From assembly GCA_018818835.1 (NCBI GenBank), contig JAHIRD010000102.1:1-64000 (forward strand): DNA of 64,000 nt. The letters run 5' to 3'. The stretch comes from Pseudomonadota bacterium (GTDB taxonomy: Bacteria; Desulfobacterota; Desulfobacteria; Desulfobacterales; Desulfolunaceae). Each line of letters starts with the position of its first letter. Position 1 is the first letter of the stretch. The notes beneath the pieces are model-generated. The model ran no database searches and was not told the origin of the DNA. It saw only the letters and a list, made by a program, of their open reading frames with translations. Below, piece after piece: positions 57,242-64,000 of the stretch. A program made the position numbers and the translations under genes.

Positions 57242-60094
57242 TCAATAGGTAACAAACAACCGCACGTCAGGCCCTTTTTCAAGAAACAGATAGTTGAAAT
57301 AACCCAGGTCGTCATGGGGATCGAAATAAAGCCGCATCTGGGTCCGTCCTGACGTGTTTATGGCTTTTTTACCCTCCTCATTGAAATCCGATGAATCTTT
57401 GCATCCCTGGTCAAAGGGCTCAAAAAATGCCACAGATATGGCTGTGGCCCCATCATCCCAGTCGCCTGTCTGGCACAGGACATCTGACCCGAATTTGCCT
57501 TTTTTGACATCAATGGTAAGGCGTGCGTTTTCAAAGGGATTTCCGAATCCCGACTGATGTTTGATTTGCAGATAGGCCCGTTTTATGTCGGCTCCCTGGG
57601 GTAAGGGCGAGGTGTCGAATGAAACGATGGCCCGGCTGATCATCCCATCCCAGCCTGCGCCAACAGCCAGGCCGGCATCATCCACAACACTGCGGTTTGC
57701 CCCATCCACCGAGGCCTTGATGTACCCGTCAATGTCGGCAATGTTTTCGAATACCCTGAGCTGGGGCTCTGTTTGCCGGATGAATTCAGCGGTCGTCACA
57801 TCTTCCAGGTTACCCTGTTTGTCTTTGGATCTGAATGTGACCGTGGTGGTTTCGGAAAGTGTGAAGGCGCTCTGGTAGAGATTCCCGTGAGTTTCATCGG
57901 GTATGCTGCCGTCGGTGGTATATTTGATCCATTCCACGGGTTCACCGGCGGTAAGGGATACCTCTATCCCGCCTGTGAAGCTGCCTCCGGAAGGAAAAAT
58001 TTTCGTTTCGGGTGCCATATCATCATGAATGACATAATGAAAGATAGACCGGGTTTCGTTGTTTGCACTGTCTTTGGCATAGCAACTGATGGCATGATTC
58101 CCGTTTCCGCTCAGTAAAAATTCTTTGGAATTCACAAAAAAAGGACTATGAATATCCGGCACGGTGCCATCTAAGGTGAAATAAATCCTGACATCCTCAT
58201 CCACGTCATCAACACCCCTGACGGTTATGGTGACGGCCGAGTCGTGAAAAACATTGACCGGTTCCGCTGTGATACTCGGCTGGATATCTGAGATGTCCAT
58301 GGTGAATACCCGGGTTTCCACAGGGCTTGCATTGCCGGATCTGTCCTGTGCAAAATAGGTGAATGTCTTTTCACCGGATGTCGTGAGCTCAAGGGTGCCG
58401 CGATTGATAAAATGCATACTTCCGGTTGAGGGTGTCGAACCATCCAGTGTGTAATAAATCTTTGGCACCGGATCGGCGTTATCAACGGCCGTCATCATGA
58501 CCCTTATCGGTTCGTGGTATGTTCCGGAATCATGGGAACATTCAACAACAGGCATCTCGTTATCCCTGGGGGCTGCGTCAGATGCGTCTGTCCAGACACC
58601 ATCAATGTGGTATAATGTGAACGATTGCATGTACCCGTATTTTGAACCGTAGTGCAAATATCCGTTCACATCCAGCCGCCCTGCAATATAGTGTGCGGTC
58701 ACGGTCCCTTGGGCCTGCTCTTTAACAGCCGCTTGGAACTTTCCGCACACGATGGGTGATGCGATTCCCGGTGATGAAATGGCCATGGCCTTGACAAGGG
58801 CCGTTTCCGAAATGGTCACCGTGGATGTGGCAACCCATCCGTATTCGTCCGAGCCGCCGTTGTTCATAAACAACACACCCACATCGGTCACAGCCTGGAC
58901 CTGGAGCGTTTGATTGAAGGGGACAGAGCTGTCCGTGATGATTTTAACATGTGGCGGTATGACATCGGCATAGTAGGTCCGAAAGACATTTGGGGCGCCA
59001 TCCGCTTCAAAGACAACCTCCCACATACCCGGAGATGCAAGGGTGAAGGATTGGCCGTTGGCCAGTGTATCGGCCACAGATTCGATCACCTCGGTTTCAA
59101 GATGACCTGCAATGATCTTTTTTGTCATCTTGCTGGCCTGGTAGAATATGGGGCCCGCATCATCAGGGGCGATGTGGACTGTGACCTCCACAGACCCATG
59201 GTAGGGCCCGCCGGGCGGATCAACCCGGATGATGACAGGGTCAACCGGAGGCATGGAGTTTAAATAGACAGCCCAGTCCCTGATGATGGCCGGTTCGTCT
59301 TTGACTTTTTCGTGGCTGAGCACACCGCTGCCCACATTGTAATTCCGGTTTTGATCCGCTCCGTCCAGATGTCCGGTACAGCCCTTGAAATTATCCATCT
59401 GATCCACATAGCCGCCGGGAACCATGCAGCACCAATACCTGACGTTGTGGGGCGGGGGAGGCGTTACAGGATCGTTTTTCCCATGGGGGGAGTTGTCCGG
59501 TGACAAACACCGGTAGATGGGGTGGGCCACAAGCCACTCATCATAGGTATCGTGGGGATAAAAGGTCTGGGAAAACTGTGACAGCCCTTTCATGGCCCCG
59601 TCAATCAGGACAATGGTGCCCACGTTTGCATACCGGGTTCCTTTGTCCCACACAATGGGCTCGCTTTGATTTTTAAGCCCTGCCAGATAACAGAGAATTA
59701 AAAAACATCCAAGGGAATGACCGACGATATCAACGCAATCCACGTCCAGATATGCTCTGACAGAATCGGTAAACACCCGGAGGTCTTCGACATTTGCCGT
59801 GTAGGCATCCTTGAGTGCTCGATCCCCGGAACCCAGATAGGATAAGGCCCAGAAATGCTCATCCGTATAACCGAATTCACTTCGCTTCAGCTCGTTGATC
59901 ACCTTGAGCCAGCCCCACTGGGAATGGGTTGCGGTGCCTGTATTCCCATGGACCAGGACGATGGGCGATTTGCCGCTTTTTTGTATAAAGTCCCTGTGAT
60001 AATCCCTGTCCTTGACCGGGTTGCCTCCAAAACCGCCCAGGGGCCGTCCGTCACTGTCATAAAGGGTAACAAAATCATTCGGAAAATTGCTCAT
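57242..60094 (-). CDS. lipase-like alpha/beta hydrolase with chitobiase-C repeats
   Basis: A 950-aa modular protein behind a strong GGAGG site. The first ~280 residues form an alpha/beta hydrolase: VLVHGNTGTATHSQWG for the oxyanion hole and VGHSLGC with nucleophile Ser127. Then come several ~80-90-residue beta modules of the CHB_HEX_C type, recognisable by IYYTLDGSTPSTGS, IYFTLDGTVPDIHS and KYTTDGSIPDETH. The last ~170 residues look like a carbohydrate-binding-type or DNRLRE-like beta-sandwich. No N-terminal signal peptide is apparent although the architecture is that of secreted enzymes. The substrate is unknown. Confidence 0.8.
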   Translation of the reverse strand: MSNFPNDFVTLYDSDGRPLGGFGGNPVKDRDYHRDFIQKSGKSPIVLVHGNTGTATHSQWGWLKVINELKRSEFGYTDEHFWALSYLGSGDRALKDAYTANVEDLRVFTDSVRAYLDVDCVDIVGHSLGCFLILCYLAGLKNQSEPIVWDKGTRYANVGTIVLIDGAMKGLSQFSQTFYPHDTYDEWLVAHPIYRCLSPDNSPHGKNDPVTPPPPHNVRYWCCMVPGGYVDQMDNFKGCTGHLDGADQNRNYNVGSGVLSHEKVKDEPAIIRDWAVYLNSMPPVDPVIIRVDPPGGPYHGSVEVTVHIAPDDAGPIFYQASKMTKKIIAGHLETEVIESVADTLANGQSFTLASPGMWEVVFEADGAPNVFRTYYADVIPPHVKIITDSSVPFNQTLQVQAVTDVGVLFMNNGGSDEYGWVATSTVTISETALVKAMAISSPGIASPIVCGKFQAAVKEQAQGTVTAHYIAGRLDVNGYLHYGSKYGYMQSFTLYHIDGVWTDASDAAPRDNEMPVVECSHDSGTYHEPIRVMMTAVDNADPVPKIYYTLDGSTPSTGSMHFINRGTLELTTSGEKTFTYFAQDRSGNASPVETRVFTMDISDIQPSITAEPVNVFHDSAVTITVRGVDDVDEDVRIYFTLDGTVPDIHSPFFVNSKEFLLSGNGNHAISCYAKDSANNETRSIFHYVIHDDMAPETKIFPSGGSFTGGIEVSLTAGEPVEWIKYTTDGSIPDETHGNLYQSAFTLSETTTVTFRSKDKQGNLEDVTTAEFIRQTEPQLRVFENIADIDGYIKASVDGANRSVVDDAGLAVGAGWDGMISRAIVSFDTSPLPQGADIKRAYLQIKHQSGFGNPFENARLTIDVKKGKFGSDVLCQTGDWDDGATAISVAFFEPFDQGCKDSSDFNEEGKKAINTSGRTQMRLYFDPHDDLGYFNYLFLEKGPDVRLFVTY

Positions 60095-60378: not shown

Positions 60379-62199
60379 TCAGTGAAGCCCCCTGGCTTCC
60401 AAGCGGATCAGTTCCGCTTCCCAGGCAAACCGGTCCGGCTTGTTTCTGAAAGCCCTGGGTAAAAGACTTTTCCGGGTGCAGTTGATCAGGGCCTGGAGGG
60501 TCTGATATCGCCGGGTTTCGCCAATGGCAGGCAAAATGATTTCTTCGATGACATCCAGGATATCGTGTTCGGTGAGTTTCGAGTGTTTCATGGATGCGCG
60601 TGCTTTTAATTCCGAACGTAAGGAGGCAAAGGCAGCCGCTGAATAATGGTCCAGGGCCAAACGCATGCGGGCGATCATCTCAGACGTTAGTTCTGTGTCC
60701 AGAACACCGGAGACCGCCCATGAGATAAAGGCGTCAATGTCCTCATCTTCGGGGTCAAGGACCGGGATGATCAGATCACCCACCCGGCCGGGTCGCCGGA
60801 TATCCGGTGAGAGGTTGTGGATGCGGGCGGTCATGAGCAGCCAGAAAACACGGCCCCTGAGGCTGGTATCAGACATCATGGCCTGGATTTTACCGGTGAG
60901 CCGCCTTTCGGTGGCATGGGTTTCCGCTCCAATGCCTCCGAACTGGGTATCGGCTTCATCCACAAAGATCAACACCCGGGAAAGGGCGTTCAGTACCCGG
61001 CGCAGGCGCTCCAGAATCACATCGGTCTGGCCGAACCATTGACTCCTCAGGTTTTTCAGGACAAGCACAATCATATCAAGTTCACTGGCCACAGCCTCGA
61101 AGATAAAGGTCTTTCCCCCACCCACGGGCCCACAGACCGCCGCCCCTGGAAGGGCCGCAGAGGGTCCGGATTTGAACCGGGGCATCACCTCGGTTTTTAA
61201 AAATTCTTTGAGATCGGAAAACCCCACCACATCATCCAGGGTATGGCTGGGTTTTTTGAATTCAACAATGTCTTCACCAAGTTGGCTCTGGATATATTCC
61301 TCGACTTTTGAAATCACATCGGATGAGGTCAAGGGTGTTTCATCATGGACAGCCCCCAGGAGCAGTTGCATCAGGGCATGGATGGAAAGACCTGCCGTGT
61401 AATCGCAGAATTCGTCGATGCTCCCTTTCAGTTTCAGGGTTTTATCCCCGCGGTGCATCTGATCGAACCAGGTGATGAAATGGTTTCGTGCCTGGGTGTC
61501 CGGGGAATCAATGCTGACCTCAAGGACCTGGGGCAGGCGGGAGACTCTCTGGTTGATCAGGCTCCGTGATTCACTGAAAAGAATCACCGCATCGTCACTG
61601 GCCATGAATCCGGGGTCAGAAAACCAGTCCTGGCAGATACAGACCCTGTGGCGGTCGGCATCGGAAAGACGGGTGATTTCGCCGTCGGGGATGACCATGT
61701 CCGTCGCTTCAATGAGAATGATGAGGTTTTCACCCATCCCCGGTGTTTGTCCTTTCATGGTCCGTGAACAGAGGCAGAATTGGCGGAGGAGTTCCAGGGC
61801 CACCGTGGGGTTTCCCACGGCCTTTGTCAGGGTGTCATCAAAGGATTTTTCAAGGGTGTCGAGGCGATCCCGGGTGGAACCGGATCTGAGCATTTTTTCT
61901 ATGGCCAGGCGATTGGCATCAAAGCCGCTGCGCCAGGTGAGCCAGGCATTTTTGACGATGTCCCGGTCCTGGGGCCGGATAAAGCGGATGGGGCCGTTGA
62001 GTTCATAGACCACAAGAATCCGGTCATCCACCTGCCAGTGTTCGCAAAGAAGGGAGACCAGGGGCAGGTAATCCCAGCCGTCTTGGGTTTGAAATGCAAA
62101 AAGGTCCTGGATGTTGCCGGTTAAAAGAACCGTGCGGGCTTGGTTTGAATTGATGATTTTACCGGTTTTTTTTAAAAAAGGGTAGCTGATGGTGTTCAT
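60379..62199 (-). CDS. AAA+ ATPase, Ycf46-like architecture, coupled to ABC transporter
   Basis: A 606-aa cytoplasmic protein. The C-terminal AAA module has Walker A GPVGGGKT (357-364), Walker B VLIFVDEAD (409-417), and a sensor/arginine-finger segment LLMTARIHNLSPDIRRPGR (455-473). The N-terminal ~290 residues look like a second, degenerate AAA domain without P-loop (TVLLTGNIQDLF... VILFSESRSLIN), an arrangement reminiscent of Ycf46. The start overlaps the ABC ATPase stop by 4 bp, with AGGAA upstream. It is probably one operon with the permease and ATPase. It may remodel or regulate the transporter; that is inference. Confidence 0.78.
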   Translation of the reverse strand: MNTISYPFLKKTGKIINSNQARTVLLTGNIQDLFAFQTQDGWDYLPLVSLLCEHWQVDDRILVVYELNGPIRFIRPQDRDIVKNAWLTWRSGFDANRLAIEKMLRSGSTRDRLDTLEKSFDDTLTKAVGNPTVALELLRQFCLCSRTMKGQTPGMGENLIILIEATDMVIPDGEITRLSDADRHRVCICQDWFSDPGFMASDDAVILFSESRSLINQRVSRLPQVLEVSIDSPDTQARNHFITWFDQMHRGDKTLKLKGSIDEFCDYTAGLSIHALMQLLLGAVHDETPLTSSDVISKVEEYIQSQLGEDIVEFKKPSHTLDDVVGFSDLKEFLKTEVMPRFKSGPSAALPGAAVCGPVGGGKTFIFEAVASELDMIVLVLKNLRSQWFGQTDVILERLRRVLNALSRVLIFVDEADTQFGGIGAETHATERRLTGKIQAMMSDTSLRGRVFWLLMTARIHNLSPDIRRPGRVGDLIIPVLDPEDEDIDAFISWAVSGVLDTELTSEMIARMRLALDHYSAAAFASLRSELKARASMKHSKLTEHDILDVIEEIILPAIGETRRYQTLQALINCTRKSLLPRAFRNKPDRFAWEAELIRLEARGLH

Positions 62200-63170
62200 A
62201 GGTTTCCTGCCCAGCCTTCCCTGGCATCATATTCCTGCCAGAACTGGACATGTTCGTTTGGGTCGGTGATGTGACGGGCTTCAAAGGCAACAGCCCTCAA
62301 CATTTCCCGTTGTTTCCTGAACAACTCAAAATCCGGAGCTTCACTGGGACGGAAAACAGGGGACATGCAATCGTAAACCACGGTTGCCCCGGGATGGCCG
62401 GAAAGACCCAGGTCCTTATGATCCCAATGCTGGGATAAGGCCACCACACGGTCTCCCACATAAATGGCCTCGTTTAATTCATGGGTGACGATGAGGATGG
62501 TGTAGGGCGGTGTCCTGTCTTCATTGCGCGCCCGTGTGTTTTCACCATAAAGGGTCAAAAGCATTTTCTGGAGTTCTTCACGGGTGGCCTCGTCCAGCGC
62601 TCCAAAGGGTTCATCAAGGAGCAGAACAGACGGTTTCATGATCAGGGCCTGGGCAATGGCAACACGTTGGCGCATGCCCCCGGACATTTCGTGGGGATAC
62701 TGGTTGACCGACTCCCCGAGCTTAAGGGTGTTTAACAGGGCATCGGCTTCATCCAGATGCTTTTTCTTCATGGTTCGCCAGCTTTGAAAACGAAACAGAC
62801 GGAAGGGCAGGCTGGTCTGATCCAGCATAAGGCCCACGGCCACATTTTCACGGGCCGTGAGAAAGGGAAACAAGGTGTACTGCTGGTAGACAATGCCCCT
62901 GTCCCTGCCGGGCCGGGTGACAACCCGGGCCGTATCCGAATCCCGGGGTTTGATCATAACGTCGCCTTCACAGGGGGGATGGGTGCCCACAATGGCTCTG
63001 AGCAAGGTGGACTTTCCGCAGCCGCTGGGGCCCACCAGGGAGACGATCTCGCCCCGGATGATTTTCAAATTGATATTGAACAGCACGCGCTTGGGACCGA
63101 ACCAGTGGTTGAGATTTCGGCACTCCAGAACAATATCCTCTTTAAAGGCCTGATGTTTATCTTTTGCCAT
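62196..63170 (-). CDS. ABC transporter ATP-binding protein (nitrate/sulfonate/taurine type)
   Basis: The ATG at 63170 with AGGTGG upstream gives 324 aa; a frame start at 63269 lies inside the permease gene. Walker A GPSGCGKST, Q-loop VYQQYTLFPFL, signature MSGGMRQRVAIAQAL, Walker B VLLLDEPFGALDE and H-loop VTHELNEA are all intact. It resembles SsuB/TauB/NrtD ATPases. After the ATPase core a C-terminal ~80-residue extension (residues ~245-324) carries polar sequence without a known domain. The start overlaps the permease end by 14 bp, and the end overlaps the AAA+ gene. Confidence 0.88.
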   Translation of the reverse strand: MAKDKHQAFKEDIVLECRNLNHWFGPKRVLFNINLKIIRGEIVSLVGPSGCGKSTLLRAIVGTHPPCEGDVMIKPRDSDTARVVTRPGRDRGIVYQQYTLFPFLTARENVAVGLMLDQTSLPFRLFRFQSWRTMKKKHLDEADALLNTLKLGESVNQYPHEMSGGMRQRVAIAQALIMKPSVLLLDEPFGALDEATREELQKMLLTLYGENTRARNEDRTPPYTILIVTHELNEAIYVGDRVVALSQHWDHKDLGLSGHPGATVVYDCMSPVFRPSEAPDFELFRKQREMLRAVAFEARHITDPNEHVQFWQEYDAREGWAGNL

Positions 63171-63978
63171 GGGTATACCACCTGAAAAATATGTGCTGGG
63201 TCCTGCGGAGCAGGACATCCATAAAAAATCCAAACGCAGCCAGAACCGCCAAATACGGGTAAACCACATTCATGTTCAATAGACGGGACTGGAGGCGGAT
63301 TCTGTAACCGAAACCCACATCGCCCACCACCATTTCCGCAGCGATCAGGTAAACCATGGCCGGTCCGATCTGAAGCCTGACTGCGTCCAGCATTTTGGGC
63401 ATGATATGGCGAAGGATGATGTTCCAAATCAGTTCGGTTTGGGATGCTCCCAGGGTGTATGCTTTGTAAAGGGTTTCATCGGGGACTTCCTTGACAGCCA
63501 GGTAAATGGATTGGGCCAGGGTCGGCAGCACGCCAAAGGAAATCATGGCCACATACATCCGGGTGTCGGTTCCGGCCAGAACGAAAAAAACAGCAAGGGC
63601 CGCCGTGGGCGGAACCTTGGCCAAAAGGGACATGGGGGGAGCAAGAAAGGCTTCAAAGGGTGTGAAACAACCCATGAGGAGGCCGATGACCACGGCGCCT
63701 GCCACGCCGAAGAAAAGTCCAAGGAAAAGACGTGACATGGTGGCCTTACTGTCCACCACGATCCAGCGTTCGTCGGAACGGGGGTTGACCTCAATGATTT
63801 TCTGGACACCCTGGCCCAGCTGGGTCCAGGTGGGAATGGTGGAATCATCGGGGTTTTTCTGGTGCTGCCAGTGTGAAACCAGGCTGTAGAACCCCATCAG
63901 GACCAGAATGGAAAGGACCCCTATCATCAGGCTCTTTTTTTTGTCAATGGCACGTCGGATCATAGTATGTTTTCCCAT
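63157..63978 (-). CDS. ABC transporter permease (SsuC/TauC-like)
   Basis: A ~273-aa permease with an N-terminal TM helix and about five more. The cytoplasmic EAA loop reads AYTLGASQTELIWNIILRHI with the conserved Gly, typical of the SsuC/TauC/NrtB branch. Starts at 63981 (GTG), 63978 (ATG) and 63963 (ATG) are all possible; ribosome binding sites do not decide clearly. It is the first visible gene of the transporter operon; the substrate-binding protein is expected beyond the right edge. The transported substrate is unknown: this branch handles sulfonates, nitrate, taurine and thiamine precursors. Confidence 0.87.
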   Translation of the reverse strand: MGKHTMIRRAIDKKKSLMIGVLSILVLMGFYSLVSHWQHQKNPDDSTIPTWTQLGQGVQKIIEVNPRSDERWIVVDSKATMSRLFLGLFFGVAGAVVIGLLMGCFTPFEAFLAPPMSLLAKVPPTAALAVFFVLAGTDTRMYVAMISFGVLPTLAQSIYLAVKEVPDETLYKAYTLGASQTELIWNIILRHIMPKMLDAVRLQIGPAMVYLIAAEMVVGDVGFGYRIRLQSRLLNMNVVYPYLAVLAAFGFFMDVLLRRTQHIFFRWYTHGKR

Positions 63979-64000
63979 CACCCTATGGGGTGTTTTTTAC

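Follow-up and report, generated by a model that had tools for sequence, protein, structure and literature searches.

A nine-gene bacterial operon joining a PspA-like protein, a tandem AAA+ ATPase as its predicted remodelling motor, and a NitT/TauT-type ABC importer

Our analysis of a 64,000-nucleotide stretch of DNA (here called the window; bases 1-64000 of a contig that is 71,867 bases long) revealed three overlapping genes at its right edge, which encode an ABC permease, an ABC transporter ATPase and an AAA+ ATPase (Table 1). An initial annotation of this DNA had described overlaps of 14 bp and 4 bp between the three genes, and both are present in the DNA. The permease gene probably begins at the internal start given in Table 1, because orthologous permeases start at the ATG of an MIRxPI sequence. 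The same annotation had proposed looking to the right of the window for a binding protein, and a gene for a periplasmic binding protein (SBP) was indeed found there, directly upstream of the permease gene. The window's right edge thus cuts an operon of nine genes, all on one strand, which are transcribed in the order SBP-OmpA, vWA, TM-SBP-OmpA, membrane coiled-coil protein, PspA-like protein, SBP, permease, ABC ATPase and AAA+ ATPase. The window also encodes a lipase-like protein of 950 aa that contains three chitobiase/Fn3-associated repeats (57242-60094); its gene is on the same strand and follows the AAA+ gene after 284 bp. A partial match to a group II intron upstream of the operon (L003:13779-13868) runs off the contig end; as this was the sole match, control of the importer by a riboswitch was rejected.

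Table 1. Genes and gene junctions of the operon in the order of transcription. Positions without a prefix are those of the window; L003 denotes C3:58000-71867, and the window coordinate equals the L003 coordinate plus 57999.
Feature	Position	Strand	Remarks
SBP-OmpA gene	L003:11636-13483	(-)	615 aa; first operon gene
vWA protein gene	L003:10685-11617	(-)	310 aa
TM-SBP-OmpA gene	L003:9043-10623	(-)	526 aa
Membrane coiled-coil protein gene	L003:8264-9043	(-)	259 aa
PspA-like helical protein gene (diverged PspA/IM30, ESCRT-III-like)	L003:7143-7976	(-)	277 aa
Third SBP gene	L003:5984-7096	(-)	370 aa
Tail end of this third SBP (periplasmic binding protein) gene	63983..64000	(-)	remainder beyond the window's right edge, same contig
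ABC permease gene (BPD_transp_1, TauC/NrtB-like)	63157..63981	(-)	probable true start 63963
Permease/ABC ATPase overlap, ATGGCAAAAGATAA	63157..63170	(-)	14 bp; read in DNA
ABC transporter ATPase gene, NitT/TauT type	62196..63170	(-)	324 aa; start ATG at MAKDK, ortholog alignment agrees
ABC ATPase/AAA+ stop/start overlap, ATGA	62196..62199	(-)	4 bp; read in DNA
AAA+ ATPase gene	60379..62199	(-)	606 aa

The transporter had been described as an importer of the SsuBC type, a label that proved to be loose. Its ABC proteins belong to the NitT/TauT group, but none reached an NCBIfam equivalog cut-off: the permease scored 43.5 bits against the SsuC equivalog NF008470 (cut-off of 347) and also stayed below the cut-offs of the other NitT/TauT equivalogs. 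Membership in SsuBC, TauBC or NrtCD was therefore rejected. The nearest solved chains of the ABC ATPase were NrtD/CmpD, and the protein is extended at its C-terminus by about 50 aa that are conserved in the operon family.

The AAA+ protein comprises a degenerate AAA domain (residues about 1-300), an intact Vps4/Cdc48-like AAA domain (about 301-577) and C-terminal helices that reach to residue 606, and the Pfam AAA match was confined to its second half. The degeneracy of the first half, suspected from the single sequence, was borne out by 44 orthologs, none of which contains a Walker A motif within the first 300 residues. In the second domain of the same orthologs, Walker A, Walker B (DE) and both arginine fingers are essentially invariant, the sensor is also conserved and a W/Y-x-G pore loop is present in all 44. 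In an AlphaFold2 model (mean pLDDT of 87), residues 301-581 aligned with Vps4 (6bmf) with a Z of 21.7 and an rmsd of 2.9 over 268 residues, while residues 3-569 aligned with tandem-AAA chains such as Rix7 with a Z of 21.6 and an rmsd of 6.4 over 464 residues. For the second half, Vps4, fidgetin, spastin and proteasomal ATPases tied as matches (Z of about 21-22), and since proteasomal and Cdc48 AAA domains lie within about 1 Z of Vps4, the latter is not singled out. The active AAA domain of the protein is thus of the Vps4/spastin/fidgetin type and has an aromatic pore loop 1. No MIT domain was identified in the protein; in the model, residues 1-300 form a degenerate AAA domain that aligns with the first AAA domain of tandem-AAA chains, and recruitment is therefore not a textbook MIT-MIM contact. 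In cyanobacteria and plastids, Ycf46 consists of an inactive first and an active second AAA domain. Calling the protein Ycf46-like, as the initial annotation had done, is justified for this architecture alone.

The PspA-like protein of this operon scored an E value of 0.59 against PF04012 (PspA_IM30), below the cut-off, and an identification from this Pfam match alone was discarded as too weak; the family alignment was used instead. PF04012 was matched by 41 of 48 orthologs (E of at most 1; best, 1.4e-8), so that membership in PspA/IM30 holds for the family and not for this member on its own. In a profile search of the PDB, the top matches were Vipp1/PspA. The predicted helices (residues 2-29, 31-100, 112-195, 198-222 and 227-252) follow the alpha0-alpha5 order, with a long alpha1 and an alpha2/3 hairpin. 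Vipp1/PspA were also the top Foldseek matches of the model, with a best E value of 8e-4, which is modest, and long helices match easily. Judged from the family alignment and the model, the protein belongs, as a diverged member, to the PspA/IM30 branch of the ESCRT-III superfamily. A separate, canonical PspA_IM30 match (67.9 bits) lies on another contig of the same genome (G000:C273:1670-2050).

Relatives of the AAA+ protein were sought in one scan across 84,980 species genomes, which yielded 80 loci with 51-71% identity, labelled as Desulforapulum/Deltaproteobacteria, Verrucomicrobia, Planctomycetes, Hydrogenedentota, Acidobacteria, Poribacteria and others. Among matches to AAA+ homologs in other Desulfobacterota, most of the low-scoring ones were generic AAA+ proteins and were left out. 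Partner genes were scored with the operon's own proteins as queries. The closest relative fetched was a Desulforapulum-labelled metagenome-assembled genome, whose AAA+ protein is 71% identical; in this genome, a stretch resembling, by eye, a RelE/ParE-type toxin-antitoxin pair lies between the permease and SBP genes (L034:3669-4639). All eight partners of the AAA+ gene were found in the same order in 20 of the 46 loci with at least 8.5 kb of upstream sequence, and these loci span several phyla. The initial annotation had reasoned that the gene overlap would be incidental if the AAA+ gene had unrelated neighbours in most relatives. This was not what the survey returned, because the link between AAA+ and transporter genes is conserved across phyla. 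Moreover, an identical 4-bp overlap of the ABC ATPase and AAA+ genes recurs in 14 of the 39 relatives measured, and the coupling is therefore not incidental.

The most constant partner of the AAA+ gene was the PspA-like gene rather than the transporter. Among the 56 loci with at least 4.5 kb of upstream sequence, 23 contained both the PspA-like and the ABC genes, 28 the PspA-like gene only, 4 the ABC genes only (L049, L065, L077 and L104) and 1 neither. A gene of the ESCRT-III superfamily thus lies upstream of the AAA+ gene in 51 of the 56 loci, and in all five loci that lack it locally, a PspA-like protein is encoded elsewhere in the genome. At the 28 transporter-less loci, the AAA+ gene follows the PspA-like gene, often with a gap of 10-110 bp. 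In one Verrucomicrobiota order (116 genomes), the PspA-like protein occurred in 10 genomes, the AAA+ subfamily of this operon in 12 and both in 9 (Fisher p of about 3e-10, which is not a strict p value because the genomes are related). As PspA is kept with AAA+ when the transporter is absent, the PspA-AAA+ pair forms the core and the transporter a frequent addition. As far as gene neighbourhoods tell, the ABC importer is an attached yet separable module of a PspA-AAA+ operon.

Towards its end, the PspA-like protein has an unconserved linker, about 20-30 residues long, which the model shows as disordered (pLDDT below 50 at residues 250-275); LPE follows at the extreme C-terminus. In a set with less than 75% identity, the last three positions showed entropies of 0.44, 0.70 and 1.30 bits, compared with about 2.8 bits in the linker. 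[LI]P plus one or two residues closed 47 of 48 aligned proteins and all 33 further non-truncated proteins (the two sets overlap in genomes), the variants being LPV, LPL or LPI in Poribacteria and IPE(S/A) in two planctomycetes. Truncated PspA-like paralogs encoded in the same poribacterial operons are devoid of an LPE-type tail; they stand in tandem beside the tailed protein at L092, L101, L113, L117 and L119, possibly forming a composite polymer. When the other operon proteins were inspected by eye (up to 16 sequences each), most members of the first SBP-OmpA family (L003:11636-13483 and orthologs) were seen to keep a C-terminal SDFDF, and none of the remaining proteins had a tail as sharp as LPE. 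A conserved end on a free linker looks like a candidate docking or entry peptide for the AAA+ protein, although the tail could serve something other than AAA+.

A distant group of AAA+ proteins from Verrucomicrobiota, about 30% identical to the one described here, is encoded in operons that also contain genes for vWA, a PspA-like protein distinct from the present one, SBP-OmpA, a permease, an ABC protein and a membrane protein. The PspA-like protein of this second subfamily has an invariant tail of its own, ERQKIAE (4/4). A PspA-like gene also shortly precedes the AAA+ gene for the further distant AAA+ proteins at L192, L193 and L211. In one further genome (G039, L035:226-9423), the whole gene set contains TelA (PF05816, E of 8e-72) in the slot of PspA and has the AAA+ gene on the opposite strand. 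In that genome, the AAA+ protein may therefore serve another polymer, and TelA may be a functional stand-in for the ESCRT-III-like protein, as judged from a single locus; a wider search of the class for more TelA-containing operons found few AAA+ relatives of that type, and the swap remained confined to this locus.

In human cells, Vps4 takes apart the ESCRT-III polymer. Because the PspA-like gene is the most constant partner of the AAA+ gene, the AAA+ protein is probably the motor of a PspA polymer, and by analogy with Vps4 we favour with reasonable confidence that it disassembles or remodels the PspA-like protein encoded in the same operon. This prediction rests on the observed gene order, conservation and co-occurrence, the predicted folds, the catalytic residues and the near-invariant tail. 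We infer that the PspA-like protein forms polymers on the inner membrane, where its disordered tail would make a C-terminal peptide, ...(S/T)xLPE-COOH, available to a hexamer of the AAA+ protein. The peptide would probably be received by the inactive N-terminal AAA layer, or else pass straight into the pore, and the active second AAA ring, with its W-F-G pore loop, would use ATP to thread and extract PspA-like subunits in a Vps4-like manner. In the nine-gene form, the PspA-AAA+ pair would work in concert with the transporter: the membrane patch may surround the NitT/TauT-type importer, with the extra binding proteins bearing OmpA peptidoglycan anchors, and transport or the sensing of the periplasmic state may be coupled, in whichever direction, to remodelling of the membrane or envelope. 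A more far-reaching version, in which the operon encodes a complete bacterial machine of the ESCRT-III/Vps4 type, with the LPE tail as the MIM counterpart, read by an inactive AAA domain that replaces MIT, and with wiring to an importer that has peptidoglycan-anchored SBPs, is possible, though we lean slightly against it.

Several findings could also be read from the side of the transporter. The initial annotation had suggested a regulator or assembly factor for the importer, and AAA+ and transporter are indeed linked; however, the transporter is not the primary partner, as half of the loci (28/56) have PspA without it. A dedicated factor of this kind would touch the ABC ATPase or the permease, and PspA would merely support the surrounding membrane. 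The adjoining ABC and AAA+ genes with their recurrent 4-bp overlap (14/39) would fit such a role, the conserved C-terminal extension of the ABC ATPase could be a docking site, and at 4 loci ABC, permease and AAA+ genes occur together without a local PspA gene. We nevertheless regard it as unlikely, since the 28 loci just mentioned pair AAA+ with PspA and have no such ABC genes, and since the conserved tail sits on PspA, with none as sharp on the ABC ATPase. That an ordinary SsuBC-type importer is followed by an AAA+ gene by chance is scarcely credible: only generic Pfam matches speak for it, and the neighbourhood survey refuted it by finding the nine-gene order in several phyla, at 20 of the 46 loci.

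It also seems very unlikely that the AAA+ protein is a general unfoldase or chaperone, with LPE as a degradation or localisation signal for another factor and the cluster as an envelope-stress regulon that co-expression alone keeps together. In its favour, vWA, OmpA-fused and PspA proteins are common components of envelope stress and C-terminal hydrophobic tags can act as degrons. Yet the adjacency and co-occurrence of AAA+ and PspA come close to being obligate even among distant phyla, and the two AAA+ subfamilies each go with their own conserved PspA tail. The operon offers a bacterial PspA with a near-obligate AAA+ partner of its own, and the three-residue tail makes the predicted contact directly testable.

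An operon type of PspA/Snf7, AAA+, ABC and SBP/OmpA genes was predicted from sequence by Ravi et al. 2024 (PMC11237479; example, OGG56892.1). Its main text describes PspA with a TM coiled-coil partner, an AAA+ protein with an inactive N-terminal copy and longer operons with an ABC ATPase, a permease and SBP-OmpA, and puts forward a link between ATP-dependent remodelling and solute transport, the same inference that we reached independently. Compared by description, the gene sets agree, and the present AAA+ protein, with two AAA domains of which the first is inactive and with PspA, ABC ATPase, permease and SBP-OmpA encoded alongside, belongs to that PspA-associated type. A term search of the main text of PMC11237479 found no mention of the conserved PspA tail, which the supplements may contain, and the complete order of the nine genes, including vWA and a third SBP, and the TelA substitution are likewise absent from the main text, with Text S2.2 and the tables as possible places of earlier notice. 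Relative to this main text, what is added here is the tail motif, the hierarchy of association and the TelA-for-PspA swap, the operon type itself having already been predicted.

As in the Vps4/ESCRT-III and CdvB/CdvC systems of eukaryotes and archaea, an AAA+ gene is here coupled to an ESCRT-III-superfamily gene, the AAA+ protein has a Vps4-like active AAA fold with an aromatic pore loop, and the polymer subunit has a short conserved element at its extreme C-terminus. In contrast to Vps4 and CdvC, the present AAA+ protein has no identified MIT domain and is a tandem of an inactive and an active domain, a layout that is more Rix7/Cdc48-like, and the tail motif of the PspA-like protein is different from and shorter than that of ESCRT-III and CdvB. 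With canonical PspA/PspF and with Vipp1, the operon shares the PspA/IM30 fold of the polymer subunit, whereas PspF is a sigma-54 enhancer-binding AAA+ protein and does not belong to the family of the AAA+ protein described here. The permease and nucleotide-binding domain (NBD) families are common to this operon and to the NitT/TauT importers (NrtCD, CmpCD, TauBC and SsuBC). Compared with those importers, the operon encodes an NBD with a C-terminal extension and an insertion in the helical region and three binding proteins, two of them fused to OmpA, with AAA+ and PspA encoded alongside.
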